Below are positions 14,639 to 62,370 of a DNA stretch of 64,000 bases, piece by piece. This stretch comes from Citrifermentans bemidjiense Bem (lineage in GTDB: Bacteria; Desulfobacterota; Desulfuromonadia; Geobacterales; Geobacteraceae), in assembly GCF_000020725.1 (NCBI RefSeq), contig NC_011146.1, positions 3,781,501 through 3,845,500 on the forward strand, written 5' to 3'. The position numbers and the translations under genes were made by a program. Below the pieces are notes generated by a model. It had not been told where the DNA came from. It saw only the letters and a program-made list of their open reading frames with translations, and searched no databases. Position 1 is the first letter of the stretch. Every line of letters begins with the position of its first letter.

Positions 14639-15514
14639 CTACGACGGCAGCAGCCCGTCTACAAGCTCCAGCACGGCCTGGTCGCGGTTCAGGGTGTAGA
14701 TGTGAACGCCCGGGACCCCGGCGTCCAAAAGCTCCTGCGCCTGCCGCCTGGCGTAGGCGATACCGGCTTTTTGCACCGCGGCCGCACCGCCGCTGCGGTC
14801 GGCCTCTTCGAGTTCGGCAAGGTATGCGGGGGGGAGCGTCGCGCCACACATGGAGATGATGCGCTGGATCACCTTGAGACTGACGACCGGGATAATACCG
14901 GGGATGATAGGCTTGTCAACGCCAGCTGCACGCGCCTTCGCGACAAAATCGAAGTAGAGCTGGTTGTCAAAAAACAGCTGGGTGATGACGAAATCGCCCC
15001 CTTGGTCCAGTTTGAGCTTGAGGTATTCCAGATCGCTTTCCGGGTCCGTCGCCTCGGGGTGCGTTTCCGGGTAGCCGGCGACCCCGACTCCCATCTCGGG
15101 ATGGGACTCCCTGATGAAGGCGGCGAGATCGGAGGCGTGTAAAAGCGTGCGGCAGGCGGAGAACTCGGGCGGCGTGTCTTTGGGGAGGTCGCCGCGCAGG
15201 GCCAGGACGTTCTTGACCCCGGCGAGCGCTAGCTCGTCCAGGAAGAGCTGCAGGTCGCCTCGATAGGCGCCGACGCAGGTCAGGTGCGCCATGGTGTCCA
15301 GGCCGTTGCCGCCTTGAAGCCTCTTCACTATTTCCAGCGTGTCCCCCTTGGTGCTGCCGCCGGCTCCATAGGTTACCGAGGCGAAAAGGGGATTTATCTG
15401 CGACAACCGGTCCACCGTGTTGAAGAAGGCCGGCCACTCGTTCCTATCTTTCGGGGGAAAGAACTCAAGCGAAACGAACTGCTGCGCCTGGTTCATCTTT
15501 TCCACTATTCTCAC
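14639..15514 (-). CDS. metF: Methylenetetrahydrofolate reductase
   Basis: 291 residues, the usual length. It reduces 5,10-methylene-THF to 5-methyl-THF, the methyl donor for methionine synthesis, or works in the reverse direction in acetyl-CoA pathways. Conserved features include FVSLEFFPPK, VTYGAGGS, MAHLTCVG (the usual His/Cys region), LALRGDLPKD and a FVITQLFFDN segment that helps bind folate and FAD. The start is taken at GTG 15514, with GGAG seven bases upstream; an in-frame ATG at 15553 lacks a ribosome site. The divergent neighbour is the ABC-F gene. Confidence 0.95.
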   Translation of the reverse strand: MRIVEKMNQAQQFVSLEFFPPKDRNEWPAFFNTVDRLSQINPLFASVTYGAGGSTKGDTLEIVKRLQGGNGLDTMAHLTCVGAYRGDLQLFLDELALAGVKNVLALRGDLPKDTPPEFSACRTLLHASDLAAFIRESHPEMGVGVAGYPETHPEATDPESDLEYLKLKLDQGGDFVITQLFFDNQLYFDFVAKARAAGVDKPIIPGIIPVVSLKVIQRIISMCGATLPPAYLAELEEADRSGGAAAVQKAGIAYARRQAQELLDAGVPGVHIYTLNRDQAVLELVDGLLPS

Positions 15515-15714
15515 TGCAATCTCCAGCGCTTCTATTAGGCTCCCAAAGCCCACACATTGCCATATCGGCCGATGAAAATAAACTTTTTTGTCATGTCGAC
15601 AGGCAGGAGCTGCAACTTTAATTATTTTTTATAAGAAGCCGTGTGGCTGCAACAGGAAGAGCGCTGCTCCAGATAGTATAAGTGCAAAAATACGTTGCTT
15701 GCCACCTATAGGAA

Positions 15715-15738
15715 ATGATATACATGCAAGGTTCATGA
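15715..15738 (+). CDS. Candidate 7-residue leader peptide before the ABC-F gene
   Basis: ATG at 15715 reads MIYMQGS then TGA; the internal ATG at 15724 (MQGS) has AGGAAA upstream. Its stop codon overlaps the base of a terminator hairpin (15738-15766), the arrangement seen in ribosome-dependent attenuators of ABC-F resistance genes. Too short to judge by coding statistics. Confidence 0.35.
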   Translation: MIYMQGS

Positions 15739-15766
15739 CCACGGGGACGCTCCTTGTGGTTTTTTT
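15738..15766 (+). terminator. Leader terminator (attenuator) before the ABC-F gene
   Basis: ACCAC-GGGG pairs with CTCC-TT-GTGGT (nine base pairs with a two-base bulge, three-base loop) followed by seven Ts. It lies 26 bases before the ABC-F start codon with no gene upstream on this strand, so it can only act on that gene. A possible -10 (TATAAG, 15677-15682) lies upstream. Confidence 0.6.
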
Positions 15767-15791
15767 CATTTTTCCAAAGGGAGCAGTTCAC

Positions 15792-17426
15792 ATGATCACC
15801 GCATCAAACGTCACCCTCTCGTACGGCAAGAGGGTCCTGTTCAAGGACGTAAATATAAAATTCACCCCCGGCAACTGCTACGGCCTCATCGGGGCCAACG
15901 GGGCGGGGAAATCGACCTTCCTGAAAATCCTCTCCGGCGAGATCGAAGCCGACAAGGGAGACATCTCCGTCGGCAAAGGACGCATCGCCGTCTTGAAGCA
16001 GGACCAGTTCGCCTACGACGAGCACACGGTGCTGAACACCGTCATCATGGGGCACAAGAAGCTGTTCGACATCATGGCGGAGCGCGAGGCGATCTACTCC
16101 AAGCCGGAGTTCAGCGAAGAGGACGGCATCCGCTCGGCGGAACTGGAAGCGGATTTCGCCGAGATGAACGGCTACGAGGCGGAGAGCGAGGCGGCGGTAC
16201 TGCTGAACGGTCTCGGCATCCCCGAGGAGATGCGCGGCAAGCAGATGAAGGAGCTTGAAGGCGGCGAGAAGGTCCGGGTGCTCCTGGCGCAGGCGCTCTT
16301 CGGCAACCCCGACGTGCTCCTCTTGGACGAGCCTACCAACCACCTGGACCTGAAGTCGATCTCGTGGCTGGAGGAGTTCCTGTTCCGCTTCCAGAACACC
16401 GTGATCGTGGTCTCCCACGACCGTCACTTCCTGAACCAGGTCTGCACCCACATAGCCGACATCGACTTCAGCCGACTCCAGGTCTACGTCGGCAACTACG
16501 ATTTCTGGTACCAGGCAAGCCAGTTGCACCTGAAGCAGCGCCAGGACGACGTCAAGAAGACACAGGACAAGGCGACCGAGCTGAAGGAATTCATCCAGCG
16601 CTTCTCCTCCAACGCTTCCAAGGCGAAGCAGGCGACCTCCAGGAAAAAGCTTTTGGAGAAGCTGACCATCGAGGACATGCCGGTTTCCTCCAGGAAATAC
16701 CCCTGGGTGGTTTTCAAACCGGAGCGTCCCTGCGGCGACATCATCCTTGAGGTGAAGGGGCTTTCCAAGGCGGTGGACGGGGTCCAGATCTTCAAGGATC
16801 TCGACCTGATCGTCAGGAAAAACGACAAGATCGCCTTCGTGGGGGGCAACTCGCTGGCGAAGACCACCTTGTTCCAGATCCTTGCCGGCGAGCTAGAGCC
16901 GGACGAAGGTACCTTCCGCTGGGGCGTCACCATCACCAACGCCTACTTCCCCAAGGAGAACGGCGACTATTTCAAGAGCGACCTGAACCTGATCGAGTGG
17001 CTGGGGCAGTATTCCCCTCCCACCGAAGGCGAAAGCTTCGCCCGCGGCTTCCTGGGCCGCATGCTCTTCTCCGGCGACGAAGCCCTGAAAAAGACCAGCG
17101 TCCTCTCCGGTGGCGAGCGGGTGCGCTGCATGCTCTCCAGGATGATGCTGGCCGGCGCCAACGTGCTGATGCTGGACGAGCCGACCAACCACCTCGACCT
17201 CGAGTCCATCACCGCGCTCAACAACGGGCTCATCTCCTACACCGAGGTGGTGCTCTTCGCCTCCCACGACCACGAGTTCGTCTCCACCGTCGCCAACAGG
17301 ATCATCGAGATTCTCCCGAACGGCTGCATCGACCGCGACATGAACTTCGACGACTACCTGGAAGACGCGGACGTCATAGCGGAGCGCGACAGGCTTTGCA
17401 ACGGCCACGCGGAGCTGAGCCTGTAG
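15792..17426 (+). CDS. ABC-F family ATPase (YbiT/YkpA-like)
   Basis: About 544 residues with two ATPase domains and no membrane part. Domain 1: GANGAGKST, signature LEGGEKVRVLLAQALF, LLLDEPTNHLDL. A charged linker (about 240-310) is the P-site tRNA interaction motif region of ABC-F proteins. Domain 2: VGGNSLAKTTLF, LSGGERVRCMLS, LMLDEPTNHLDL. In the second Walker A the usual glycine before the Lys is replaced (SLAKTT), as in a subgroup of ABC-F proteins. They act on ribosomes to rescue translation or protect from antibiotics. GGGAG precedes ATG 15792. Confidence 0.9.
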   Translation: MITASNVTLSYGKRVLFKDVNIKFTPGNCYGLIGANGAGKSTFLKILSGEIEADKGDISVGKGRIAVLKQDQFAYDEHTVLNTVIMGHKKLFDIMAEREAIYSKPEFSEEDGIRSAELEADFAEMNGYEAESEAAVLLNGLGIPEEMRGKQMKELEGGEKVRVLLAQALFGNPDVLLLDEPTNHLDLKSISWLEEFLFRFQNTVIVVSHDRHFLNQVCTHIADIDFSRLQVYVGNYDFWYQASQLHLKQRQDDVKKTQDKATELKEFIQRFSSNASKAKQATSRKKLLEKLTIEDMPVSSRKYPWVVFKPERPCGDIILEVKGLSKAVDGVQIFKDLDLIVRKNDKIAFVGGNSLAKTTLFQILAGELEPDEGTFRWGVTITNAYFPKENGDYFKSDLNLIEWLGQYSPPTEGESFARGFLGRMLFSGDEALKKTSVLSGGERVRCMLSRMMLAGANVLMLDEPTNHLDLESITALNNGLISYTEVVLFASHDHEFVSTVANRIIEILPNGCIDRDMNFDDYLEDADVIAERDRLCNGHAELSL

Positions 17427-17456
17427 CACTTGTAGGAGCACCAGTCATGTTAAAAA

Positions 17457-17493
17457 GAAAGGGCCTTTCCCATGGGGGAGGCCCTTTCTTTTT
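17457..17493 (+). terminator. Terminator of the ABC-F gene
   Basis: GAAAGGGCCT and AGGCCCTTTC form a 10-bp stem around a 12-base loop, followed by TTTTT; it starts about 30 bases after the stop codon. Confidence 0.9.
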
Positions 17494-17526
17494 GCGCTGA
17501 TGTTCCGGCTTGCCCTCCGTAAAAGG

Positions 17527-17629
17527 CCCCCTCACCCCGCCCCTCTCCCAGAGGGCGAGGGGAGACAAGCCAAGCCCCGCACATACCCTCTCCCTCTGGG
17601 AGAGGGTGGCCGAAGGCCGGGTGAGGGAG
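17527..17629. repeat. CCCTCTCCC-type paired repeat
   Basis: Contains CCCTCACCCCGCCCCTCTCC at the left and its near inverse (GGGAGAGGGTGGCCGAAGGC followed by CGGGTGAGGGAG) at the right. A related half copy is at 23240-23280. Non-coding, between two convergent genes. Confidence 0.75.
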
Positions 17630-17654
17630 ATGCCACGAAGATGAAATGACCACC

Positions 17655-17730
17655 AGGAAGCTCCAGCTTCCCCTGGGTCCAAGCTGGAGCTTGCGTTTCC
17701 TTGGGTTCCCAAGCTGGAGCTTGGGAACCA
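17655..17730. repeat. GTTCCCAAGCTGGAGCTTGG-type repeat, copy 2
   Basis: Three units: GGAAGCTCCAGCTTCCCC, CAAGCTGGAGCTTGCG and the palindrome GTTCCCAAGCTGGAGCTTGG (extended by GAAC). Together with the preceding repeat it fills the 260-base spacer before the radical SAM gene stop codon. Confidence 0.85.
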
Positions 17731-17753
17731 GAAAACAAGCAAACCCCCTCGGC

Positions 17754-19217
17754 CTACATCTTCCCCGTGGCGTACCATTTGAGATAGGAGAGCCCGGCCC
17801 GGGTCCAGTAGCCAAGCTCCTCCCGCGACCGGATAGCAGCCAACTGCTCGAGGACGTACCGCGGGCGCAGGTAAAAGGAGCGGGTGAACGATCTCTGGCA
17901 CTCCAGTAGCTCCTCCGCGCTGAAGTTAGTGGTGCGCCAGCGCGGCTTCTTGCCGAAGATGACGTAATCCTCCCAGGGCACCCCCGGCTCGATCAGCCCC
18001 GCGGCGAGCATCTTCTCCCTAAGCGGCGTCCCCGGGTAGGGGACCACCACGGAAACGGAGACGAAGCTCCAGGGAAGCCCCCGGATCAGCCTCCGCGTCT
18101 GTTCCAGATCCTCCCGGGTTTCTGAAGGGTCGCACCCTATGATGAAGTTCCCTTCCACATGCCTGATCCCCGCCTCCCTGGCCCAGCGCACCGCATTTTC
18201 AACCTGCCCGACCGTGATCCCTTTCCCCATCAACTCCAAGAGGCGCGGACTGCCACTCTCGACGCCGAAGGCCACCTTCTCGCAGCCGCAGCGCCGCATC
18301 AGCCGCAACAGTTCCGGCGTCACCGTGTTTACCCTGGTGTCGCAGTTCCAGGAACGGATGCCGCTGCGCGTGAGGATCTCGCAGATGACTGCGGCGCGCT
18401 CGGGGTTGAGCGTGAAGGTGTCGTCGGCAATGACCACGTGGTTCACCTTCTGCTCGCGCACCATCCGGTCCAGCTCGTCGGCTATGAAGAGAGGGTCACG
18501 GAAACGGACGCTCCTGCCGAAGGTGGCCTGGATGGCGCAGAAGGAGCAGGCGACCGGGCAGCCGCGAGAAGTGAAGAGTTCGCCGGAGCGTAGCGCGTTG
18601 GAAAAACCGCGGCTGGAATGGCCGGCACGAAGGGAGTAGTCGAGTAGGTCGCGGGCAGGAAAAGGAAGGGAGTCGAGGTCGGAAACCAGCTCGCGGGACG
18701 AGTTCACCCTCACCCCGTCCTCGGACCGGTAGGCGATCCCCCGAATGTCTTGGCCGGCTCCGCCCTCGCGCAGCCTCAGGCAAAGTTCCGCAAGCGTCAG
18801 CTCCCCCTCTCCCCGGACCAGGTAGTCAAAGGAGGGGAACTCTTCCAGCGTCTCTTTGGGAAGGGCGCTCGCGTGGCTCCCCCCTATCACGGTGACCGTG
18901 TCGCCGCGCCGCCGCTTCACTGCACGGGCTAGCTCGGCCGCGCTCTCTATGGTGGGGGTAGTGGCGGAAAAGCCGACCACCGCCGGGGAAAGCCGCTGCA
19001 AAAGCGCCCCAAGGTGCTCTTCGCTGTAGGGGGTCGCCTCGTAGTCGGCGATGTCCACCTGCAGCCCTGCCAGGCGCAGGCTGGAGGCGAGGTAGGCGAG
19101 GTTCATCGGGCGGGTATGCGAGAGGAGCGCCGCCCCCTGGAAAGGATCGGGGGGGCGCACCAGCAGCACGCTTCCCGGTTCCACCTGCGCCGCTCCCCTT
19201 GTTGGGGCGCCGCTCAT
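17754..19217 (-). CDS. B12-binding domain radical SAM protein
   Basis: 487 residues. The N-terminal region (VLLVRPPDPFQGAALLSHTRP to about 140) is a cobalamin-binding-like fold without the DxHxxG motif being evident; the radical SAM core starts with SRGCPVACSFCAIQATFG, giving CxxxCxxC for the [4Fe-4S] cluster. Such enzymes usually methylate or rearrange unreactive carbons in lipids, sugars or natural products. Its start overlaps the stop of the glycosyltransferase gene by four bases, so it is the last gene of the deoxysugar operon. The substrate could be a sugar or polyprenyl-linked intermediate; that is inference. Confidence 0.85.
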   Translation of the reverse strand: MSGAPTRGAAQVEPGSVLLVRPPDPFQGAALLSHTRPMNLAYLASSLRLAGLQVDIADYEATPYSEEHLGALLQRLSPAVVGFSATTPTIESAAELARAVKRRRGDTVTVIGGSHASALPKETLEEFPSFDYLVRGEGELTLAELCLRLREGGAGQDIRGIAYRSEDGVRVNSSRELVSDLDSLPFPARDLLDYSLRAGHSSRGFSNALRSGELFTSRGCPVACSFCAIQATFGRSVRFRDPLFIADELDRMVREQKVNHVVIADDTFTLNPERAAVICEILTRSGIRSWNCDTRVNTVTPELLRLMRRCGCEKVAFGVESGSPRLLELMGKGITVGQVENAVRWAREAGIRHVEGNFIIGCDPSETREDLEQTRRLIRGLPWSFVSVSVVVPYPGTPLREKMLAAGLIEPGVPWEDYVIFGKKPRWRTTNFSAEELLECQRSFTRSFYLRPRYVLEQLAAIRSREELGYWTRAGLSYLKWYATGKM

Positions 19218-21178
19218 CGCCCCTCCACCATGAATCTCAACTGCGCCATCTTCGGCTCCAGGTCGGGGCGGGGGGCAAGCCTATTAGCGATCTGGTACTC
19301 CTGCAGCGCCTCGGCGTGCTTTCCCTCTCGCAGGGAGAGAAGCGCCAGGAACAGATGCGGGAAGGGCTCCTGAGGGGTGAGAGAGATTGCCTGCTGGTAC
19401 TTGAGACGCGCAGCGGCAAGATCCCCCCGAGCCTCGCAGAGCTGCCCGATAAACGCGCGGGTCCTTGCGTCCTTCGGGTCGAGCGCGGCTGCGGTCGCCA
19501 ATGTGGCGGCAGCTTCGTCGAACTTCTTTTGCACCATCAGCGCCGCCCCCAGAAATGAATATCCGGGAGCAGATTTGGGGTCGAGTTTGGTCGAGATACG
19601 GAGTTCCCGGACCGCTTCGTCCAGTACCTGGTTCTGGGCGGGGTCCATGGGCTGGAGCATCACGTTGATGTCATCGGTGTGCCAGGGGGGGAGGGCACAG
19701 GCCAGCACGAACCCGAGTGAGAAGTGCGCCCTCCCCTTCCCCGGGCTCTTCTGCACCGTATCCCGCCACAGGGCCACCGGCGTCGTCCACACCTCGTTTC
19801 GCAGGTAGCAGGCGACGGAGCTGGCGAGAACCAGGAAGGCGACCACGGCGACCGCGGGACGCGAGGTGCAAAGCGGTGTCCCGCTGAACCGGGGGGGAAG
19901 GGAGAACGCGGCGGCGAGCAAGGCGATGAAGAAACCGACCGACGGCAGGTAGGCCCGATGCTCGAAGATGACGTCGTCGATCGGCACCACGCTCGACTCG
20001 ACGCTGAGGGTGATGAAAAACCACCAGATGCCGAAGCCGGCCAGCGCGCGCATGCCGGCCCGGTCGTCTCCCCTGCGCGAGGTCGCCAGGAGATAAGTGC
20101 CGCCGGCTGCCAGCGCCAGCAGCAAAAGCAACGGCAGGACGACGGCCGGGGCGAGGAAAGCTTTCTGCAGCGGGTACTGATAGTCGAAGTTCTGGTTGAC
20201 CGGCAGGATGAGGAGCCGCAAGTAGGTCGTTATCACCCCGAACTGCGTCATCAGGTATTCCCAGGGGGAGGTGTGGTTGAAATTGACCAGGTTCACCGCA
20301 CCGGCCACCTTGCCCCCCTTGGCAGCCATGGCCGAGAGTGACATCAGCTTGAGCGGGATGATCGCCATGGTGAAGAGGAACGGGACCAGCCGCACGAGCC
20401 GGGCGGCGGTGACGGCGCCCCGGAAGAAGACGAACTCGTACAACGCGATCACCGCCGGGAGGGTGAAGGCGTTTTCCTTGCTCTTCATGGCTAGGACGCA
20501 GGCGAAAAGCGAGCCGAGGTAGCAGGCGACCCTCATCGGCTTCGTCTTTGCGAGCCTTCCCGCGGCGCACAGCGCCAACGACCCCAGGAAGAAAAAGGCG
20601 ACCAGCGGGACGAAGCGCTGCACCACGTAGGTGACCGCCTGCGTCTGCAGCGGGTGGCAGACGAACAAAAGGCTCGCCAGAAACGGGAGGTAGAAGTATC
20701 TCTCCGCCGGGGGTGCCGCCCCTTCACCGTGCTCCGGCTGCAGCGCCGGCGTCCTCAGGGTGAGCCACAAGACGAGGTACACCAGCAGGGCGTCGGCCAT
20801 GTGCAGCAGGAGGTTGACGACGTGGTACCCCCGCACGTCCAGCCCGTGCAAGGCGTGGTTGAGCGCAAAGGTGAAGTAAGCCACCGGGCGCAGGATGAAG
20901 TTGTTCTTCAGGTCCGGGTTGACCGGGAGCGCGAACACCTTTTGCGGATCGGCGAAGAAGGAGAAGTCCTTGATGGCCGGGTTGTTGACCAGGCAAGGGA
21001 GATCGTCGAAGACAAACGGCGCGGCTACGATGTTCGAATAGACCGCGAAGCCCAGCGCCAGCACCAGCAGGATATGAACCAGCGGATCGCGCCAGAGGCT
21101 CAGCTCTTCCTCCACCGCGGGCAAGGCCTGTGGCCCGGCTTGCGGCTCAAGCTTTGCTAACTTGCGTCTCTTTTTCAT
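19214..21178 (-). CDS. Polytopic membrane glycosyltransferase-like protein with TPR tail
   Basis: 654 residues. A charged N-terminus precedes about ten or more membrane helices (from about 33 to 450) with FVFDDLPCLVNNPAI in the first loop, the acidic DD position expected of GT-C transferases, and LRPVAYFTFALNHALHG. The last 170 residues are TPR units (APGYSFLGAALMVQKKFDEA, ARTRAFIGQLCEARGDLAAA). This architecture is that of TMTC/DUF1736-type enzymes, which in eukaryotes O-mannosylate proteins. Function here is inferred: transfer of a polyprenyl-linked sugar to protein or lipid in the periplasm. It lies 15 bases after the methyltransferase gene. Confidence 0.8.
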   Translation of the reverse strand: MKKRRKLAKLEPQAGPQALPAVEEELSLWRDPLVHILLVLALGFAVYSNIVAAPFVFDDLPCLVNNPAIKDFSFFADPQKVFALPVNPDLKNNFILRPVAYFTFALNHALHGLDVRGYHVVNLLLHMADALLVYLVLWLTLRTPALQPEHGEGAAPPAERYFYLPFLASLLFVCHPLQTQAVTYVVQRFVPLVAFFFLGSLALCAAGRLAKTKPMRVACYLGSLFACVLAMKSKENAFTLPAVIALYEFVFFRGAVTAARLVRLVPFLFTMAIIPLKLMSLSAMAAKGGKVAGAVNLVNFNHTSPWEYLMTQFGVITTYLRLLILPVNQNFDYQYPLQKAFLAPAVVLPLLLLLALAAGGTYLLATSRRGDDRAGMRALAGFGIWWFFITLSVESSVVPIDDVIFEHRAYLPSVGFFIALLAAAFSLPPRFSGTPLCTSRPAVAVVAFLVLASSVACYLRNEVWTTPVALWRDTVQKSPGKGRAHFSLGFVLACALPPWHTDDINVMLQPMDPAQNQVLDEAVRELRISTKLDPKSAPGYSFLGAALMVQKKFDEAAATLATAAALDPKDARTRAFIGQLCEARGDLAAARLKYQQAISLTPQEPFPHLFLALLSLREGKHAEALQEYQIANRLAPRPDLEPKMAQLRFMVEGR

Positions 21179-21193
21179 GTTTTCTCCAAGCCG

Positions 21194-21943
21194 TCAGCCT
21201 TTTCTGGCCACGGCGAACAGGGAGGAGCCGATCGGCAGCCGCAGGCGCCGCAGCAGGGAATTCTCCATCCGCATCACATTCAGAAGAACCCGGTTCACCA
21301 GTGGCGAAGGGAGCACCACGTCCGAGGCCCCAGCTTTGGCGGCACGGGCGGAGCGCAACCGTCCGCGCAGCAGCCGGCACCCCGCGACGAGCGGGAAAAG
21401 CAGGCTTACCCGGAAGCTCAAAAGCGCGACGCGAAACCCCGCCGCGGCCAGCCTGTCACGAAGGGTGCGCTCGTCGTAGCGCTCGCGGGTGTGGACCGCC
21501 ACGTCGTGGGAACTTCTGAGCCACTCCAGGGCCACCAGGTTGAGGATCAGCATCCCCCCCGGCCGGAGCGCCGCGAGGAACGACTTCAGCACCTCTACGT
21601 CGTCCCGGACCCCCTGGTGGTACAGGACGTCGATGGAGGTGATCAGGTCGTAGCGCTCCGGCTCCAGCTCCAGACCGTTCAGGTCGCCGATTTCGGCGGC
21701 GACGCCGCGCCTGCGGCAGAAGCGGATCGCCTCCCGCGAAGCGTCGACCCCCTCCACCTCGCCGTAGGGTGCCAGCAACTGGCAGAGCCTTCCGGTGCCG
21801 CACCCCGCATCGAGGATGCGCAAGGGGCGCTTAAGGCGCGCGGCCTCCCGCGCCACGTGGGAGAGGATCAGCTCGTGCAGCCCCACGTACCACCAGTGGG
21901 AATCCTCCGCCTGGAACATGCGGGCGTATTCCGCCGGGTTCAT
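21194..21943 (-). CDS. Class I SAM-dependent methyltransferase
   Basis: 249 residues with motif I LDAGCGTGRLCQLL (about 44), an acidic loop VEGVDASREAI, and motif IV-like ITSIDVLYHQGV. The N-terminus SHWWYVGLHELI is characteristic of small-molecule methyltransferases next to polysaccharide genes. Probable target is the deoxyamino sugar made by the neighbours (N- or O-methylation), or a glycolipid. Its start overlaps the aminotransferase stop codon by four bases, and the TPR gene follows after 15 bases, so it is inside the operon. Confidence 0.85.
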   Translation of the reverse strand: MNPAEYARMFQAEDSHWWYVGLHELILSHVAREAARLKRPLRILDAGCGTGRLCQLLAPYGEVEGVDASREAIRFCRRRGVAAEIGDLNGLELEPERYDLITSIDVLYHQGVRDDVEVLKSFLAALRPGGMLILNLVALEWLRSSHDVAVHTRERYDERTLRDRLAAAGFRVALLSFRVSLLFPLVAGCRLLRGRLRSARAAKAGASDVVLPSPLVNRVLLNVMRMENSLLRRLRLPIGSSLFAVARKG

Positions 21944-23064
21944 CGGCTCCCCCGGAAAAACGCCCGCACCGCCTCGACCACCTTTTCGGCGTGGCGCCGG
22001 GGGAGCTCCGGGTACATGGGGAGCGAGAGGATGCTGCGAGCCAGGCGCTCGGTCACCGGCAGGTCCCCTTCCCGATAACCCAGGAAGGCATAGCCGCGCA
22101 TCAGGTGCACCGGGTGGGGGTAGTTGATGCGGGTCTCTATCCCTTCGCCGCGCAGATATTCCTGCAGCTCATCGCGCCGGCCGGTCCTCACTGTGTAGAG
22201 GTAGAACTGGTGCCGGCACCCCTCCCGGACAGCAGGAAGCGCGAGGTCCCCGACCCCTGCGAGCCCCTGGTCGTAAAGCTCCGCCAGCTCGCGGCGCTTT
22301 TCGACCGCCCTCTCGACCCCGGGCAGCGCAAGGCTCAACAGGGCCGCCTGCACCTCGTCCAGCCGAGAGTTGAACCCCTCCTCTTCGGCATAGTAGCTTC
22401 CCTCCATGCCGTAAAAGCGCAGCCGCCTCAACCGTGCCGCAAGCTCCGGGTCGGCCGTTGTCATCACGCCCGCGTCGCCGAAAGCCCCCAGCACCTTGGT
22501 GGGATAGAAGGAGAAGGCGCCGATATCCCCGAGGCTCCCCGCCCGGTTCCCCCGGTAGCTGGCGCCGCAGGCCTGGGCGCAGTCCTCGACGATGCGCACC
22601 CCCCGTCGCTTGGCGATCTCGACAAGAGGCGCCATGTCCGCCATCTGGCCGCACAGGTGCACCGGAAGGATGCAGCGGGTGCGCCCGTTCATGGCTCCCT
22701 CCACCTGAGAGACGTCGATCAGGAAGGTGTCCTCTTCGACGTCGACAAAGACAGGGGTCGCGCCGGCGGCGCGTATCGCTGCCACGGTGGGGACGGCGGT
22801 ATTGGAGACGGTGATCACCTCGTGCCCCGCCCCTACCCCCAGCGCCTTCAGGGCCAGCGTCAGGGCGTCCGTCCCGGAATTGACCCCGACCGCGTAGCCG
22901 GTCCCGCAGTAGGCGGCGATCGCCTCCTCGAATGCCGCCACCTCCTGTCCCATCACGAGCCGGCCCGAGGAAAAGACACGATCCACTGCGCGCAGGTACT
23001 CGTCGCGCCGCGGCTCATAGGCGGCAAGATAATCCCAGTAACGGACCGGTTCTGCGCTCGACAT
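21940..23064 (-). CDS. DegT/DnrJ/EryC1/StrS sugar aminotransferase
   Basis: 374 residues, a PLP enzyme that aminates a keto group on a nucleotide-activated sugar. Visible: VNSGTDALTLAL (about 62), VEDCAQACGASY (159-170) and the PLP-lysine motif SFYPTKVLGAFGDAG with Lys190. It resembles the 3-amino-forming branch (FdtB/QdtB, TylB-like) but C3 versus C4 specificity cannot be fixed here. GAGGGAG precedes the ATG. The preceding gene, a 2,3-dehydratase, makes it likely that the product is a 2,3,6-trideoxy-3-amino (or 4-amino) hexose. Confidence 0.88.
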   Translation of the reverse strand: MSSAEPVRYWDYLAAYEPRRDEYLRAVDRVFSSGRLVMGQEVAAFEEAIAAYCGTGYAVGVNSGTDALTLALKALGVGAGHEVITVSNTAVPTVAAIRAAGATPVFVDVEEDTFLIDVSQVEGAMNGRTRCILPVHLCGQMADMAPLVEIAKRRGVRIVEDCAQACGASYRGNRAGSLGDIGAFSFYPTKVLGAFGDAGVMTTADPELAARLRRLRFYGMEGSYYAEEEGFNSRLDEVQAALLSLALPGVERAVEKRRELAELYDQGLAGVGDLALPAVREGCRHQFYLYTVRTGRRDELQEYLRGEGIETRINYPHPVHLMRGYAFLGYREGDLPVTERLARSILSLPMYPELPRRHAEKVVEAVRAFFRGSR

Positions 23065-23108
23065 AAGTTCTCCCTCAGTTCGTTCCAGGTTCCCCGGAAT
23101 TCGATCTC

Positions 23109-23207
23109 GTTCCCAAGGTCCACCTTAGGAACGCAAGGCGCGTGGCCATCGTGCAAAGCTGGAGCTTTGGGTTGCATTTGGTTCCCAAGCTGGAGCTTGG
23201 GAACCAG
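23109..23207. repeat. GTTCCCAAGCTGGAGCTTGG-type repeat, copy 3
   Basis: Left unit GTTCCCAAGGTCCACCTTAGGAAC (degenerate), middle CAAAGCTGGAGCTTTGGG, right palindrome GTTCCCAAGCTGGAGCTTGG extended by GAAC. Lies in the 245-base spacer between the 2,3-dehydratase and aminotransferase genes, inside the operon. Confidence 0.85.
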
Positions 23208-23239
23208 AAGATGGGCAGAATATCGATGCTGCCGTCCAT

Positions 23240-23280
23240 TCTCCCTCTCCCCCTAGGAGAGGGTCGGGGTGAGGGCGAGG
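23240..23280. repeat. CCCTCTCCC-type half repeat
   Basis: TTCTCCCTCTCCCCCTAGGA followed by GAGGGTCGGGGTGAGGG, a half unit of the 17527-17629 family, placed next to repeat copy 3. The combination of the two families occurs at both sites. Confidence 0.7.
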
Positions 23281-23309
23281 GGATGGACTCTGTCCCTCCC
23301 CCGCTTCCC

Positions 23310-24704
23310 CTACAGCAAGCAGGAGAGGATGCTGCGGGCGCACGAGTTCACCTGCTCCCCCAGCTGCACCAGGAAAGCGATTTCGCTAAGCGGGATCCAG
23401 CGGTAGTCCGGGGGAAGCTCCAGAGTCTCCCCCTCGGGGAGCACCAGGACCCGGTGCAGGTTGTACTCCTGGTAAAACCGCGCCCCCTCCTCGGTCTGCC
23501 GGCTCTCGTGGAGCACGGGAAAGCGCCCCGGGGCGGAGAACTCCTCGAACAGAAACGGCTTCGTCAGCTTCAGGCTCCCTTCGTAATTTTCCCTGGCGAA
23601 CTGCGCCGTCGGGCCCAGCTGGACGGTGAGGCGGTTTCCGACCTCGGCTTTGGCCTGCATCAGGAGCTCCATGCCGCGCCCCCCCTTGCGGACCAGGAGG
23701 CCGATGATCCCGGGAGCGGGGTTCTCGAGGATGGGCTGCCCCCAAGAACCTACCTCGCGCGTTTCGGAGGAGATCCGCAGCCCCACGATGCGGAAAAAAC
23801 CGCGCGACAGGTGCGAGAAGAACCCCTTTTCGTCCAGCGCCCATTCCTGCAGATCGGTCAACCCGATGCGCCTGGTAAGGATGTGGGTACAGGCCCTGCG
23901 ATCGTCCAGCCACTGGAGCGTTTCCCGCAGCCCATCATCTTCATGCCATACGCCCGCGCCTGCTTCGCCAACGGGGACCAGCGCGGAGAGGATGCTGCGC
24001 GTGCAGGCGTTCACCATGTTGTCGCTGCGGATCAGCGCGGCGATCTGGCGCAGGGTAAGCCAGATGAATCCCTTGGGCAGCTCCACCGGGAAATCGTCCC
24101 CCGCCACGACCACCATGTTGCGGTTCGACTTGTACAGGAACCGCCCGCCGTCCTCGGTCTGCAGGCGGGCAAACAGCAGCCGGGACGGGTGCGGATCCAT
24201 GAAGTGCTCCAGAAAGAGCGGTATGCCGCCGCCATGGGCGCAGGTGTAGTTGCTGTAGGTAGCCTGCACCGTCGGGGAAAGCTGGATCCCTCCAAGGTTC
24301 CCCGGCTCCTCCTTGGCCTGGAGGCAGAAGTGCAGGGTGCCGGCGATGGACTTGGCCAGGATGCCCAGGATGCCGATCTCGGGCTGCTCGATGATGGGCT
24401 GGTCCCATTCCAGCTCGTGGCGCCCCAACCTGTGCCTCGCGTGCACGCCTATGACGCTGAAGAAGCGGCCGGTTTGGTGGCGGATGTTGCCGGTTATCGG
24501 GTCGCGGTGCCACCCCTGCACCGTGTCGAGCGGAACCAGGCTCTTGTTCAGCGAACAGGCCTCGCGCGCCTGCCCGATCCAGCCTTCGACGCAGGCGTCG
24601 TCATGCAGGGACAGTCCGCAGTCAAGTGAGCGGGCGACCCCTCTGGCATGTTCAGGGGCAATGGCCAGGGAGGCTGGAAGCGGAAAACTCAACTCAGGCG
24701 CCAT
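23310..24704 (-). CDS. NDP-4-keto-6-deoxyhexose 2,3-dehydratase (EvaA/TylX3-like)
   Basis: 464 residues made of two related halves: GNIRHQTGRFFSVIGV with QLSPTVQATYSNYT in the first, HLSRGFFRIVGLRI with QLGPTAQFARENYE in the second. This tandem layout is that of the NDP-hexose 2,3-dehydratase family, known from antibiotic deoxysugar pathways, where it removes the C2 hydroxyl from dTDP-4-keto-6-deoxyglucose. RmlB for that substrate is at 61.3 kb. The start overlaps the GT2 stop by 11 bases. Its presence in a surface-glycan type cluster points to a 2,3,6-trideoxy sugar. Confidence 0.88.
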   Translation of the reverse strand: MAPELSFPLPASLAIAPEHARGVARSLDCGLSLHDDACVEGWIGQAREACSLNKSLVPLDTVQGWHRDPITGNIRHQTGRFFSVIGVHARHRLGRHELEWDQPIIEQPEIGILGILAKSIAGTLHFCLQAKEEPGNLGGIQLSPTVQATYSNYTCAHGGGIPLFLEHFMDPHPSRLLFARLQTEDGGRFLYKSNRNMVVVAGDDFPVELPKGFIWLTLRQIAALIRSDNMVNACTRSILSALVPVGEAGAGVWHEDDGLRETLQWLDDRRACTHILTRRIGLTDLQEWALDEKGFFSHLSRGFFRIVGLRISSETREVGSWGQPILENPAPGIIGLLVRKGGRGMELLMQAKAEVGNRLTVQLGPTAQFARENYEGSLKLTKPFLFEEFSAPGRFPVLHESRQTEEGARFYQEYNLHRVLVLPEGETLELPPDYRWIPLSEIAFLVQLGEQVNSCARSILSCLL

Positions 24705-25647
24705 GACGCTCCCCCCCCGTTTTCGCCAGCAGCTTATCCCTCACGATGAACTGCGGCTCCTGGTTCAGCTTCAAATAGATCCGTCCCACGTACTCGCCCA
24801 CGATGCCGGTCGCCAGCAGCTGGACCCCTCTGAAAAACATGGTGATGGAGCTCAACTCTTCGATGTCGCTCGGGTCGTTCAGCATGGGAAGCCATCCCCT
24901 GATCAGCATGGCGCAGACGGAATAGATGCCGAGACAGGTCAACACCGCCCCGGCCGCGGCTAGTAACCGCAGCGGGATCAACGAGTAGCTTACGAAGACG
25001 TTGCCCCAGAGATCGGCGAGCTTCTTCATGGTATAACCGGACCGCCCCTCCCGCCGCACGTCGTGCCGTACCTGGACCGTACCTATGTTCCGTGTGGTGC
25101 GCAGGATGAGGGCATCGAGGTAGACGTTGGGGCTTCTGTGCACGACGAGATGGTCCACCAGGAAGCGGTTCATCGCCTTGAAACTGGATAGGTAGAGGTT
25201 CGCCGGCTTGTCGAGCGTCACGCGTGCCAAGGTGCCGTTCAGGTAGCTCCCGAGGTTGCGATACCAGCTGTCGCTCTTGGTTGCATACTGGCAGTAAACG
25301 ACGTCGTACCCCTTCTTTATCTCGGTCAAAAGCTTGGGCACTTCTTCCGGCGGGTTTTGGAAATCGTCGTCCATGACGACGACGTAATCGCCGCAGGTAT
25401 GGTTCAATCCAGCCATCACCGCGTTGTGCTCGCTGAAGTTGCGAGACAAGGCGAGATAGGTGACGGTCTGGGGAAACTCGTCGCAGAGAGTGCGGCAGAT
25501 GCGGTCACTTTCGTCGCGGCTGTAATCGTTGACCAGTACGATGTCGAGCCGGTAATCGCCCGACAGCTCCGAAATGAGGGCGCGGCAGAGCGGGCCGATG
25601 GTTTTCTCGGCGTTATAGACAGGAATTACGATGGAAATGGGAATCAT
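24694..25647 (-). CDS. Polyprenyl-phosphate type family 2 glycosyltransferase
   Basis: 317 residues with a GT-A fold: ISIVIPVYNAEKTI at the start, nucleotide/metal motif VMDDDFQNPP (Asp93-95), then two C-terminal membrane helices (LIPLRLLAAAGAVLTCLGIY; FFRGVQLLATGIVGEYVGRIY). This is the ArnC/GtrB/DPM1 layout: transfer of a sugar from its nucleotide form to undecaprenyl phosphate at the inner membrane. It is the first gene of the deoxysugar operon and could supply the donor for the TPR membrane glycosyltransferase. Confidence 0.9.
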   Translation of the reverse strand: MIPISIVIPVYNAEKTIGPLCRALISELSGDYRLDIVLVNDYSRDESDRICRTLCDEFPQTVTYLALSRNFSEHNAVMAGLNHTCGDYVVVMDDDFQNPPEEVPKLLTEIKKGYDVVYCQYATKSDSWYRNLGSYLNGTLARVTLDKPANLYLSSFKAMNRFLVDHLVVHRSPNVYLDALILRTTRNIGTVQVRHDVRREGRSGYTMKKLADLWGNVFVSYSLIPLRLLAAAGAVLTCLGIYSVCAMLIRGWLPMLNDPSDIEELSSITMFFRGVQLLATGIVGEYVGRIYLKLNQEPQFIVRDKLLAKTGGERHGA

Positions 25648-26398: not shown

Positions 26399-27007
26399 TC
26401 ATTTGACCTGCAGAAAATTTCTGACTCCCGTGAATACGATTTGGGCTGCGAGGGCCGCGACGAATAGGCCGGTGAGCTTGCTGAGGATGGTGATCCCCTT
26501 TTTGCCGACGATGTGTTCGATGAAGGAGGCGCAGACAAGGAGGATGCCGACGCAAAGAACCGCCGCCGCGAGTGCCGCAAGGCCTACGAACACCTGCCAG
26601 TTGTGCTGCACCTCGGCCCCCATGACCAGGAGCGCACCGGTGGTGCCGGGGCCTACGGTCACCGGTATGGCGAGAGGTACCACGGAGATGGCGCCGCGCT
26701 TCTCGCTGGGAGGCGCGCTGTCGTCGCCGTGCACCATGTGCACCGCCGACAGGAACAAGAGGCTACCGGCGCCGATCCTGAAGGAGTCGAGCGTGATGCC
26801 GAAGAGCGAGAAGAGGGTGTTGCCGAAGGAGTAGAGGACGAAGCAGGCGACCAAGACGGCGAGGGTGACCCGAAGCGCGGTGGCGCGTCGTTCCGAGGCC
26901 GAGAGTTCAGGCGTCATGGCGAGGAAAGTGGAGAGGACGAAGAAGGGAGTCAGCAGGAAGAAAAACCTGATCCACACGGTGAAGAAAAACTCTGAATACG
27001 TTTCCAT
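26399..27007 (-). CDS. MarC family integral membrane protein
   Basis: About 202 residues, six predicted membrane helices (for example FFLLTPFFVLSTFLAM, ALRVTLAVLVACFVLYSFG, WQVFVGLAALAAAVLCVGILL), with the family features SSVHM-like FLSAVHMVHG and PLAIPVTVGPGTTGALLV. MarC/YhgN proteins were once linked to antibiotic resistance; transport substrate is unknown. ATG 27007 (METYSEFFF) is chosen over an upstream ATG in a repeat. It is monocistronic. Confidence 0.88.
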   Translation of the reverse strand: METYSEFFFTVWIRFFFLLTPFFVLSTFLAMTPELSASERRATALRVTLAVLVACFVLYSFGNTLFSLFGITLDSFRIGAGSLLFLSAVHMVHGDDSAPPSEKRGAISVVPLAIPVTVGPGTTGALLVMGAEVQHNWQVFVGLAALAAAVLCVGILLVCASFIEHIVGKKGITILSKLTGLFVAALAAQIVFTGVRNFLQVK

Positions 27008-27030
27008 CCTGAGACTGGCTCTCCTGTTAA

Positions 27031-27162
27031 AAGCTTTCACCACAGAGGTACACAGAGGTACACAGAGGAAGGCAGAAACAAGGAAACAAGGCGGGTTTAA
27101 ACCTTTTAAAAGATTTTGGTTTTACCCTGTGCTCCTCTGTGTACCTCTGTGGTGATGCTTTT
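27031..27162. repeat. CACAGAGGTA paired inverted repeat
   Basis: Left end CACCACAGAGGTACACAGAG (10-base period, about three units), right end CCTCTGTGTACCTCTGTGGT, enclosing about 65 bases. Lies between MarC and the quinone oxidoreductase and touches both ends of the spacer. Confidence 0.85.
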
Positions 27163-27167
27163 GTTTT

Positions 27168-28157
27168 TTATTCAGCTACTTTCAGAACTATCTTTCCGAA
27201 GTGCTTGTCTTGTTCCATCATCCGGTGCGCTTCGACCACCTGATCGATGGGGAACGCCTTCTCGATGATCGGCACGATGGTGCGGTCGGCGAACTTCGGC
27301 ATGGCGCGGCGCACGAACTCGGCCGCGATCTCCCCCTTCTCGGAAACCGGACGCGAACGGAGCACGCTGCCAATGATCTGCTGGCGCTTCACCATCATGA
27401 GGGCCAGGTTCAGCTCGGCCTTGATGCCAGAGATGACCCCGATGATGACGAGCCTCCCCTTGTACCCCAAGGAGTTCATGTTGGGTGCCAGGTACTTGGC
27501 GCCAACGTGGTCCAGGATGACGTCGACACCCTTTTTGTTGGTGAACTCCTTGACCGCCTCGGAGAAGTCCGGGGTCTCCTTGAAGTTGATCACCAGGTCG
27601 GCCCCCAACTGCTTCACGCGCTCCAGCTTCTCGGGCGAGGCGGTGACGATCAGCTTGGACTTCGGCGCCAGGGCCTTGCAGAGCTGGATGGCAGCGGTGT
27701 TAACCCCGCCGCCGCCGCCATGCAGGATCGCCGTCTCGCCGTCCTTAAGCCCGCCTATCATGAAGACGTTGAGGAAAGCGGTGATGTAGGACTCGCAGAT
27801 GCAGGCCGCCTCCTCGAAGCTCACCGTCTCGGGGACTGGCATCAGGTGGCAGGCGTAGGCGACTGCGTACTCGGCATAACCGCCGCCCCCCACAAGCGAC
27901 ACCACGCGGTCGCCTTTCTTCCAGCCGGTTACGCCCGGTCCAAGCTCCTCGATGATGCCCGCGACCTCTAACCCGAGGATTTCGGAATCGCCCGGCGGGG
28001 GGGGATATTTCCCTTCGCGCTGCACCAGGTCGGGGCGGTTGATGGAGGTTGCATAGACCTTGACCAGCACCTCTCCTTCTTTGGGGACCGGCCTGTCCAC
28101 TTCACCCAGCTTCAGAACCTCGACACCGCCAAAACCCTCCATCAGCACAGCTTTCAT
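27168..28157 (-). CDS. NAD(P)H quinone oxidoreductase, PIG3 type
   Basis: 329 residues of the medium-chain dehydrogenase/reductase superfamily without zinc ligands. GroES-like N-terminal domain (SINRPDLVQREGKYPPPPG), then the Rossmann domain with AILHGGGGGVNTAAIQ and ADLVINFKE. PIG3-like members reduce quinones with NADPH by one electron. Glu- and Gly-rich GLEVAGIIEELGPGV marks the family. GGAGG precedes the ATG. It stands alone, divergent from nothing and followed by the paired repeat. Confidence 0.9.
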   Translation of the reverse strand: MKAVLMEGFGGVEVLKLGEVDRPVPKEGEVLVKVYATSINRPDLVQREGKYPPPPGDSEILGLEVAGIIEELGPGVTGWKKGDRVVSLVGGGGYAEYAVAYACHLMPVPETVSFEEAACICESYITAFLNVFMIGGLKDGETAILHGGGGGVNTAAIQLCKALAPKSKLIVTASPEKLERVKQLGADLVINFKETPDFSEAVKEFTNKKGVDVILDHVGAKYLAPNMNSLGYKGRLVIIGVISGIKAELNLALMMVKRQQIIGSVLRSRPVSEKGEIAAEFVRRAMPKFADRTIVPIIEKAFPIDQVVEAHRMMEQDKHFGKIVLKVAE

Positions 28158-60407: not shown

Positions 60408-61244
60408 CTATCGTGCCGGCCGCAGTTCCAGGTACCGCTCCAGGGCCTGCTGCCAGGGCTGCAGCGCGAACCCGGTATCCTGGGCGAGCTTGCTGCAATC
60501 GAGCGTCGAGTAGAGCGGGCGCGGCGCCGGGCGGTTCAGCTCCGCCGTGCTCATCGGATTGACCTTGATGTCGGCAATCCCCGCCAGGCGGAAGATCTCC
60601 TTAGCGAAACCGTTCCAAGAGACGAAACCGGCGTTCGCGGCATGGTAGGTGCCACCGCACCCCTTGTCCAAGAGCGCCTTGATGGCCAGGGCGAGATCGT
60701 AGGCCCAGGTGGGGGAGCCGGTCTGGTCGTCCACCACGGAGAGTTCGCTCCTCTCCCCCGCCAGCTTCAGCATCGTCTCGACGAAGTTCTTGCCGCCGTG
60801 GCCGTAAAGCCACTGGGTCCGGACGATCAGGTGGTCGGGGTTGAACCAGGCGTTCATCTCGCCGGCCAGCTTCGACTCGCCGTAGATGGAAAGCGGAGAC
60901 GCCAGGTCGTCCTCTACGTAGGGCGACCCCTTCTTGCCGTCGAAGATGTAGTCGGTGCTGACCTGCACCAGCTTGGCGCCGATCTCCTTGGTGGTCAGGG
61001 CCAGGTAGGCGACCCCTTCGCCGTTGACCTGCATCGCCTTTTCCACCTCTGCCTGGCAGCCGTCCACGTCGGTGTAGGCTGCGGCGTTGATGACGATGCG
61101 GGGTTTGAGGGTCAAAAGGACCCGCTGCACCGAAGCGAGGTCGGTGATGTCGATGTCGTCGAGGTCCACCCCGCGGGCGGCGTCGCCGAACACCTGCATC
61201 AGTTCCTGCCCCAGCATCCCTTTGCTCCCCACCACTAATATCAT
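60408..61244 (-). CDS. rmlD: dTDP-4-dehydrorhamnose reductase
   Basis: About 278 residues from ATG 61244. Short-chain dehydrogenase fold: [42 protein letters not shown] and the catalytic YVEDD-region with [11 protein letters not shown] (Tyr, Lys). It makes dTDP-L-rhamnose. An upstream in-frame ATG (61355) lies across the spacer repeat and is rejected. Follows rmlB by 58 bases containing a palindrome. Confidence 0.93.
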
Positions 61245-61262
61245 CGCTTCCCCCGCCCCTTT

Positions 61263-61297
61263 AAAGGGGACTGGCTCCGCCAGGTGCCTGTCCCCTT
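61263..61297. repeat. GGGGACTGGC/GCCTGTCCCC palindrome
   Basis: AAAGGGGACTGGCTCCGCCA followed by GGTGCCTGTCCCCTT: inverted arms with a small centre. Related in outline (GGGGAC..GTCCCC) to the four GGGGACAGGCTAC palindromes, but a different subfamily; common as REP-type elements in this group. Confidence 0.8.
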
Positions 61298-61302
61298 CGG
61301 TT

Positions 61303-62370
61303 TTAGTGCTGCCCGTACTGCTTCTCGTAGTATTCGCGGTAGGCGCCGGAAACAACTTCCTCGACCCACCCCTGGTTAGCCAGGTACCAGTCGATGGTCT
61401 CGGCGATGCCGCGCTCGAAGGTGTAGCTCGGTTCCCAGGAAAGCTCCCGCTTCAGCTTGGAGGCGTCTATGGCGTAGCGGCGGTCGTGACCCTTGCGGTC
61501 CTTGACGAAGGCGATCAGTCCCCTGCTCTCGCCGGGGCGCCGCCCGAGCCTTTCGTCCATCAGGTCGCAGACCAGGTTCACGATGTCTATGTTCTTCCAC
61601 TCGTTGTTGCCGCCGACGTTGAAGATCTCCCCCGGCTTTCCAAGCTTTAGCACCCGCTCGATGGCGACGGAGTGATCCTTCACGTGCAGCCAGTCCCGCA
61701 CGTTCAGTCCGTCTCCGTACACCGGCAGCGGCTTCTTCTTGAGGATGTTGTGGATCATGAGCGGAATCAGCTTCTCCGGGAAGTGGTACGGGCCGTAGTT
61801 GTTGGAGCAGCGGGTGTTCAGGGTGGCGAGGCCGAAGGTCTCGGAGTAGGCGCGCACCAGGAGGTCCGCCCCCGCCTTGCTGGCCGAGTAGGGGGAGTTG
61901 GGCGCCAGCGGCGTCTCTTCGGTGAAGTACCCTTGGGCGCCGAGGCTGCCGTACACCTCGTCTGTTGAGACCTGCAGGAACCGGAAACCGGCAACGCGCT
62001 CTGCGTGCAGCCGGCTTGCTTCGAGCAGCGTCTGGGTCCCGAGGACGTTGGTCCTCACGAAGATGTCGGGGCCGGTGATGGAACGGTCCACGTGGGATTC
62101 GGCGGCGAAATGCACCACGGCGTCCACCTCTCCCTCGGCGAGGAGTCCGGCCACGAGGCCGGCGTCGCAGATGTCCCCTTTCACGAAGCGGTAGTCGGGG
62201 TTTTCCTCCACGGCAGCCAGGTTCTTCAGGTTCCCGGCGTAGGTCAAAAGGTCCAGGTTGATGACCCGGCAGCCGGGGTTACCGGCCATGAAGTGGTTGA
62301 TGAAATTGGAACCGATGAACCCGGCACCTCCTGTCACCAGAAGCGAGGTCGGGGTGAATGCGTCCTGCAT
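61303..62370 (-). CDS. rmlB: dTDP-glucose 4,6-dehydratase
   Basis: 355 residues. LLVTGGAGFIGSNFINHF (NAD site), HFAAESHVDRSITG and the catalytic YSASKAGADLLVRAY with Tyr and Lys. It makes dTDP-4-keto-6-deoxyglucose, the entry point both for dTDP-rhamnose (RmlD next to it) and for the 2,3-dehydratase pathway at 23 kb. RmlA and RmlC are not in the window. TGGAGG precedes the ATG; promoter at 62437-62466. Confidence 0.96.
   Translation of the reverse strand: MQDAFTPTSLLVTGGAGFIGSNFINHFMAGNPGCRVINLDLLTYAGNLKNLAAVEENPDYRFVKGDICDAGLVAGLLAEGEVDAVVHFAAESHVDRSITGPDIFVRTNVLGTQTLLEASRLHAERVAGFRFLQVSTDEVYGSLGAQGYFTEETPLAPNSPYSASKAGADLLVRAYSETFGLATLNTRCSNNYGPYHFPEKLIPLMIHNILKKKPLPVYGDGLNVRDWLHVKDHSVAIERVLKLGKPGEIFNVGGNNEWKNIDIVNLVCDLMDERLGRRPGESRGLIAFVKDRKGHDRRYAIDASKLKRELSWEPSYTFERGIAETIDWYLANQGWVEEVVSGAYREYYEKQYGQH

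Follow-up and report, generated by a model that had tools for sequence, protein, structure and literature searches.

Here, we describe a cassette of six genes from Citrifermentans bemidjiense Bem (Desulfobacterota, Geobacteraceae), a soil bacterium that reduces metals. The cassette lies at 17754-25647 on the minus strand of the 64,000-nucleotide stretch that was analysed (hereafter the window; positions 3,781,501 to 3,845,500 of NC_011146.1, part of a single contig of 4,615,150 bases). The genes encode, in this order, a family 2 glycosyltransferase (GT2), an EvaA-type 2,3-dehydratase, a DegT aminotransferase, a class I S-adenosylmethionine (SAM) methyltransferase (MT), a membrane protein with tetratricopeptide repeats (TPR) and a B12-binding radical SAM enzyme. 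These six genes belong to one conserved module. It appears fairly probable (roughly 0.6) that the module encodes a multi-component transmembrane glycosylation system resembling the Arn system and equipped with a sugar pathway of its own. The donor half of this system, i.e., sugar synthesis and lipid loading, is likely and well supported.

Gene content and organization of the cassette

The six open reading frames (ORFs) have exactly the ends given in a preliminary description of this DNA, and Pfam agreed with the families proposed there: PF00535 for the GT2 (E 1.2e-28), two stretches of PF03559 for the EvaA-type protein (E 2.8e-136), PF01041 for DegT (E 2.2e-110), PF13489 for the MT (E 5.9e-18), and PF04055 together with B12-binding PF02310 for the radical SAM protein (Table 1). 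The 654-aa membrane protein matched TPR families only. The preliminary description had all genes joined by overlaps or short gaps, which holds for four of the five junctions (overlaps of 11 bp for GT2/EvaA and 4 bp for both DegT/MT and TPR/radical SAM, and a gap of 15 bp between MT and the TPR gene) and fails between EvaA and DegT, which are 245 bp apart.

A perfect 26-bp palindrome is present twice in the window (17704-17729 and 23180-23205), both times at the cassette. Because its 22-bp core was found at 21 genomic positions, we consider it a genome-wide element similar to repetitive extragenic palindromes, and it was rejected as a border of the cassette.

Conservation and distribution

EvaA relatives were detected in 33 of 141 genomes of the order, and in 32 of them the gene immediately upstream of EvaA encodes this GT2 (20 in loci L011-L030, nine in L041-L049, the genome studied here (G000), L107 and L108; the exception is L109). 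In addition, genome contigs were scanned with two peptide patterns of this EvaA branch, which yielded 36 loci (hereafter named loci) and does not amount to a census of EvaA genes. The GT2 was found directly upstream of EvaA and on the same strand in 35 of the 36, with spacings from a 158-bp overlap to a 4-bp gap and scores of 446-610 bits; only the actinobacterial L098, whose EvaA has 31 % identity, was without it. DegT follows EvaA in all 32 named loci that reach far enough (L072, L093 and L096 are too short), and MT is present in 31 of 32, L066 being the exception. The radical SAM gene was found in only 7 of 35 named cassettes, four of which are cut short. In L082, DegT and a Gfo/Idh/MocA gene (hereafter Gfo) are each broken into two ORFs.

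The same gene order was seen repeatedly within the order and also in Nitrospirota, which goes beyond chance. When the proteins were compared pair by pair between loci, the identities of GT2, EvaA, DegT and MT rose and fell together (r 0.75-0.86, calculated without a null model). The nearest EvaA relative among the named records was that of Citrifermentans bremense (96 %), although very near records may be left out.

Nitrospirota loci also showed a variation of the dehydratase itself. In 9 of 11 (L080 and L090-L097) it is encoded by two adjacent ORFs, one per domain, with a single ORF in L081 and L089. In all nine split cases both catalytic glutamate motifs are retained in the first ORF and the QAKxE motif is missing from the second, as if an inactive pocket had become a separate subunit.

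Within the genus, 8 of the 19 listed genomes carry the cassette as judged by an EvaA relative, and all eight also have the GT2, DegT and TPR genes; MT was not found in one of them (L044, genome G011), and the radical SAM gene is present in three (the window, L041 and L042). An orthologous TPR gene (67-100 % identity) was found in 8/8 carriers and in none of the five non-carriers searched (G001, G004, G008, G010 and G012), whose TPR matches reached at most 48 %, a level also seen for the carriers' other copies. In the window, 9,741 bp separate the left border gene from the quinone-oxidoreductase-like gene, whereas in the 11 non-carriers the same border pair is about 0.1-1.1 kb apart in eight, about 2.7-2.8 kb apart in two (G008 and G045) and on separate contigs in one (G047). 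The block thus comes and goes at one chromosomal site, and this presence or absence among sister species offers a genetically clean comparison.

Predicted lipid loading and other EvaA loci

The GT2 matched the structures of ArnC (E 5.5e-44), GtrB sll0501 (E 1.2e-30) and DPMS (E 1.9e-14). Its alignment with ArnC covers residues 4-305, so that the likeness to the ArnC/GtrB group extends along the chain, including the membrane part. Two C-terminal helices had been read from the sequence; the ArnC alignment spans the C-terminal part, and a hydropathy scan marked one membrane helix only, at 231. With 170 of 529 bits on the NCBIfam ArnC equivalog, the protein is not ArnC itself. ArnC-type GT2s make phosphate-linked monosugar donors. 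This likeness, together with the recurrent adjacency of GT2 and EvaA, supports the proposed joining of deoxysugar synthesis to polyprenyl-phosphate sugar loading.

Could the cassette instead belong to an ordinary O-antigen or capsule cluster, as its deoxysugar branch? A PF03559 search of 297 genomes of the phylum gave seven matches: G000, G015 from the same order, and five further genomes. None of the five outgroup loci that are readable upstream of EvaA (L102-L105 and L109; L106 is cut) has this type of GT2 at that place, as opposed to 35 of 36 named loci. In L105 and L109, EvaA is accompanied by Gfo, a distant DegT and a nearby Wzx-type flippase-like protein, which speaks for such a branch. 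However, between its borders the window holds only the six genes and a MarC-like gene, and the phosphate-linked donors expected of an ArnC-type GT2 speak against such a cluster. We therefore rejected this explanation for the cassette on the basis of its own neighbourhoods and the outgroup loci, and regard it as highly improbable. The preliminary description had named homologous clusters building an ordinary O-antigen as the outcome that would overturn it; no such cluster was seen in the GT2-linked branch, and Wzx-type flippases lie near the two GT2-less loci above.

It would be an over-claim to call all outgroup loci O-antigen clusters. L102 has two short GT2s and one PMT_2 protein, the one protein scanned in L104 is also PMT_2, and the contigs of L103 and L106 are short. 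In L102 and L104, short GT2s of weak similarity (43 and 40 bits) are found one ORF further. Because of the PMT_2 proteins, a related membrane system at these two loci is possible. Both also have the order EvaA-Gfo-DegT-MT (L102 6573-10924, L104 6640-10959; MT at 218 and 212 bits) without an ArnC-type GT2, near PMT_2 and the short GT2s, and possibly the same sugar is used there by a different membrane system.

Predicted sugar

EvaA converts dTDP-4-keto-6-deoxyglucose to a 3,4-diketo-2,6-dideoxy sugar. RmlB and RmlD are encoded in the window and RmlA elsewhere in the genome; RmlB likely supplies the EvaA substrate, and any role of RmlD for the cassette is speculation. The only solved sequence matched by the EvaA-type protein was EvaA itself (PDB 4j7g, E 1.1e-86). 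Mutations of the EvaA catalytic residues E139 and E190 are reported in PMC8987622. Counted along the 4j7g alignment, these residues correspond to E133 and E184 here and are invariant in 12/12 aligned relatives. The cassette enzyme thus keeps both catalytic glutamates and is a predicted 2,3-dehydratase.

The best structural matches of DegT were 7b0d (349 bits, unassigned as C3 or C4 enzyme), 2oga (DesV, 334) and QdtB (290), followed by perosamine synthase (233), WbpE (227), 4-amino-4-deoxy-L-arabinose (Ara4N) aminotransferases (up to 173) and 2po3/DesI (152). DesV and QdtB are C3 enzymes, and they rank behind 7b0d and above the known C4 enzymes; such a rank does not fix the regiochemistry. The DegT of a Gfo-bearing cassette (L052) had the same top three.

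The Gfo gene complicates this picture. Of 33 testable named cassettes, 23 have it and 10 do not. It is located between EvaA (or EvaA plus PMT_2) and DegT; it is missing from the window, and it was not seen in any of the eight carriers in the genus. The Gfo of L052, the sole member tested, matched the sugar 3-ketoreductase 3rbv (KijD10) first, with 153.5 bits against 109.5 for the next protein. If Gfo resembles a 3-ketoreductase, the C3 keto group would be gone for a C3 aminotransferase, and C4 amination is indicated in those cassettes. We compared the DegTs of 33 rows that have Gfo with those of 19 rows that do not (hits above 550 bits; L082 with its broken frames and cut loci drop out, and L041-L060 partly repeat genomes of L063-L097). 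When agreement of 80 % within one set and 70 % within the other was required, one column only separated them, A versus G at residue 198. Because of this single column, we infer that DegT probably has one substrate across cassettes. Either DegT would then aminate C3 and Gfo would act at another position (e.g., C4), or DegT would aminate C4, and cassettes without a Gfo gene would receive the enzyme in trans.

In the latter case the product would be a 4-amino-2,4,6-trideoxyhexose, made by EvaA, Gfo 3-ketoreduction (in trans here), C4 amination and N-methylation, a forosamine-type route without the 3-dehydratase. Both the frequency and the best match of Gfo argue for it, as does the single column separating the two DegT sets, which makes one chemistry for all likely. 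On the other hand, DegT matches the C3 enzymes ahead of the C4 enzymes in both cassette types tested, and only two partial Gfo matches (28 and 30 %) were found elsewhere in this genome. We consider the 4-amino product rather unlikely and lean to C3, slightly ahead of C4. The amino-2,3,6-trideoxy sugar of the preliminary description therefore stands in part: it fits EvaA with a DesV/QdtB-like aminotransferase, while the Gfo of other cassettes favours a 4-amino-2,4,6-trideoxy sugar.

A probably exchangeable transferase

In a structure model of the TPR protein, residues of about 22-490 superpose on STT3, PMT and ArnT, and residues 481-654 on the TPR of OGT. These matches to glycosyltransferases of the GT-C fold came from a separate structure comparison; Foldseek gave TPR proteins and the like only, among the 50 matches listed. 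The model thus shows a GT-C enzyme whose TPR tail resembles that of OGT. With this fold and the conserved neighbourhood, the earlier suggestion of a GT-C-type TPR enzyme in one unit with donor genes was upheld.

Among the motifs of the TMTC enzymes, D58 and D59 are invariant and K234, E235 and T239 are kept, with N at the T/Q place. Only RP remains of SHKSYRP, DW is absent, E-H-R-A-Y replaces ERxxY, and a match to Pfam DUF1736 was not found at E 0.001. For these reasons the assignment as TMTC was ruled out, and we use the label TMTC-like. At least four further TMTC-like GT-C proteins (27-43 % identity) are encoded in the same genome (G000, contig C1: 1277997-1279349, 1284232-1285704, 3386632-3388254 and 2995211-2996284), and matches were seen in 20/20 genomes searched, some of them to the TPR part only.

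The cassettes differ in their transferase. Of the 31 testable named cassettes (L072, L087, L093 and L096 end too early to be counted), 20 have a GT-C gene next to or within them, TMTC-like in 13 and PMT_2-like in seven. The co-occurrence of GT2 and TPR genes, whose absence would have spoken against the preliminary description, is thereby seen in 13 of the 31, with other types or nothing recognisable in the rest. The two families occupy different places, PMT_2-like proteins being located between EvaA and Gfo. "PMT_2-like" refers here to a profile from two proteins (L049 and L058, the former checked with Pfam); the PMT_2 of L085 is spread over two ORFs, and the TMTC-like assignments in L071 (248 bits) and L080 (139 bits) are weak.

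In another five cassettes (L089, L090, L091, L094 and L095), the gene that immediately follows MT or the radical SAM gene encodes a large protein with several membrane spans, whose family is uncertain. No Pfam match was found at 0.05 for those of L090, L091 and L094, and the model of the L095 protein has a mean predicted local distance difference test score of 51.8. In the Nitrospirota cassette L089, two tandem, weakly YfhO-like membrane proteins (14787-17042 and 16967-19357) directly follow the radical SAM gene. The possible kinship of the L095 protein to YfhO comes from the sub-threshold Pfam matches of these two L089 proteins (E 0.0015 and 4.6e-6) and from 17-19 % identity.

TMTC-like proteins are also the least alike of the cassette products (mean identity 0.41 versus 0.52-0.63 for GT2, EvaA, DegT and MT, hits below 300 bits omitted). 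In our reading, the donor cassette stays the same while the transferase changes, and the acceptor may change along with it.

Proposed pathway and acceptor

Based on the above results, we propose the following pathway. RmlA and RmlB would provide dTDP-4-keto-6-deoxyglucose, from which the EvaA-type enzyme would remove the C2 oxygen. DegT would then aminate the product, by our lean at C3, to give a 3-amino-2,3,6-trideoxyhexose, which MT would methylate, probably on the nitrogen; MT is possibly a sugar N-methyltransferase. In cassettes that encode it, the B12 radical SAM enzyme may carry out an additional step. At the cytoplasmic face, the GT2 would transfer the sugar to polyprenyl phosphate, a putative flippase would turn the lipid-linked sugar over, and the TMTC-like GT-C enzyme would transfer the single sugar in the periplasm, with the TPR tail helping to bind the acceptor. 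Both the GT-A and the GT-C parts of such a system are present in the genome.

The acceptor may be protein or lipopolysaccharide (LPS), the former being slightly favoured. In its most specific form, which we advance only tentatively, the proposal is bacterial protein O-glycosylation, in which a TMTC-resembling, TPR-bearing GT-C enzyme would put a single methylated 3-amino-2,3,6-trideoxyhexose on extracytoplasmic proteins of metal-reducing bacteria, with a donor cassette that is constant in Geobacter relatives and Nitrospirota and a transferase, perhaps also an acceptor, that is swapped. It is a comparably serious possibility, still short of an even chance, that the same donor pathway serves lipid A or the LPS core, as a cousin of arnBCADTEF that places a cationic sugar on the outer membrane. 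However, the TPR tail has no known counterpart in ArnT, and its best match is the OGT TPR; moreover, GT-C proteins that differ between species (PMT_2 or other types) are less expected if the acceptor is always lipid A. A membrane lipid such as a hopanoid might also receive the sugar, with an HpnJ/BchE-like radical SAM enzyme acting on that lipid. The radical SAM protein does score best with the BchE and HpnJ models, far below their cut-offs, but with its gene in so few cassettes it cannot make a common acceptor, and we consider this very unlikely.

Several observations weigh against the proposed system or parts of it. No acceptor was identified. A GtrA-family flippase was not found in the genome, the search not extending to the Wzx and EamA types. 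Six of the 31 testable cassettes (L070, L076, L081, L082, L088 and L092) have no recognised adjacent GT-C. TMTC identities also correlate with those of the core genes (r 0.64-0.77, as against 0.75-0.86 within the core), so the exchange of transferases is not total, and the TPR protein lacks the mannose-contact and DW motifs found in animal TMTCs. MT is closer to several other methyltransferases than to sugar N-methyltransferases, and it is missing from L066 (Geomonas propionica), where about 140 bp lie between DegT and the TPR gene. Finally, the 3-ketoreductase-like Gfo points to C4 amination in the cassettes that have it.

Two details of these loci may be added. MT seems to be absent between DegT and the TPR gene in G. 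propionica (L066 10307-13640; L044 5898-9231), and on the opposite strand of L088 there is an 8-helix protein of 650 aa.

Table 1. Features of the cassette and of its surroundings in the window
Feature	Position	Strand	Basis
GT2, ArnC/GtrB-type polyprenyl-phosphate sugar transferase (predicted), 317 aa, cassette gene 1	24694..25647	-	Pfam, NCBIfam, structure-sequence matches
EvaA-type NDP-hexose 2,3-dehydratase (predicted), 464 aa, two tandem domains	23310..24704	-	Pfam and PDB 4j7g match
DegT sugar aminotransferase, 374 aa, near 2oga and QdtB	21940..23064	-	Pfam and solved-structure matches
Class I SAM methyltransferase (MT), 249 aa, possible sugar N-methyltransferase	21194..21943	-	Pfam; conserved EDxHWWYVGLHELI-like start
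TMTC-like GT-C glycosyltransferase (modelled), C-terminal TPR domain, 654 aa	19214..21178	-	motifs, structure model
B12-binding radical SAM enzyme, 487 aa, optional cassette member	17754..19217	-	Pfam; 7/35 named cassettes
EvaA-DegT gap, 245 bp; Gfo/Idh/MocA position in many other cassettes; palindrome at 23180-23205	23065..23309		sequence
RmlB, dTDP-glucose 4,6-dehydratase, likely supplier of EvaA substrate	61303..62370	-	480.9 bits, cut-off 365.1
RmlD, dTDP-4-dehydrorhamnose reductase, adjoins RmlB	60408..61355	-	305.3 bits, cut-off 224.05
ABC-F ATPase, left border of cassette site	15588..17426	+	name by sequence reading, without family search
MarC-like membrane protein, right border	26399..27043	-	name by sequence reading, without family search
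Quinone-oxidoreductase-like gene, next after MarC-like gene	27168-28157		name by sequence reading, without family search

Comparison with known systems

The type of machine is known; the gene combination was not found described in the literature searched (titles and abstract openings, some result sets in part), in agreement with the earlier statement that no pathway with this set was known. If the acceptor is protein, bacterial TMTC-like GT-C enzymes would gain a function and a donor; if it is LPS, the cassette would be another route to a cationic outer membrane.

The pathway arnBCADTEF, which modifies lipid A with Ara4N, shares with the cassette a DegT aminotransferase, an ArnC-type GT2 that loads an amino sugar on undecaprenyl phosphate and a GT-C enzyme as final transferase. 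However, Arn proceeds by decarboxylation of UDP-glucuronate, whereas the cassette has an EvaA-type dTDP-sugar route and adds a TPR tail and a methyltransferase, and none of its six genes is ArnA, ArnD or ArnEF. In the epivancosamine pathway of chloroeremomycin, EvaA and EvaB likewise form a pair of 2,3-dehydratase and DegT aminotransferase. The cassette dehydratase adjoins a polyprenyl-phosphate GT2 instead of an antibiotic glycosyltransferase, and the cassette is without an epimerase. Amino-deoxysugars of this class are known mainly from antibiotics. The cassette connects a rare-sugar pathway, seen chiefly in producers of antibiotics, with a machinery for membrane glycosylation in environmental bacteria.

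Like the cassette protein, the TMTC1-4 O-mannosyltransferases have a GT-C domain, with DD in its first loop and a KExxxT motif, and TPR repeats behind it. Full-length prokaryotic homologues, one of them deltaproteobacterial, have been noted (PMC7801869). In contrast to these enzymes, the cassette protein is without the SHKSY and DW motifs and the DUF1736 match, and another donor sugar is predicted. Similarly, CsbB-GtcA-YfhO and GtlA-GtcA-GtlB (PMC8035078) combine a membrane-helix GT-A that makes C55-P-sugar with GT-C enzymes of low mutual similarity (PMT-2 and YfhO types). The systems tabulated there add Gal, Glc or GlcNAc, whereas the cassette has a rare-sugar pathway instead, in a genome where no GtrA-type flippase was found, and shares with them the pairing of a GT-A predicted to load a lipid with diverse GT-C enzymes.

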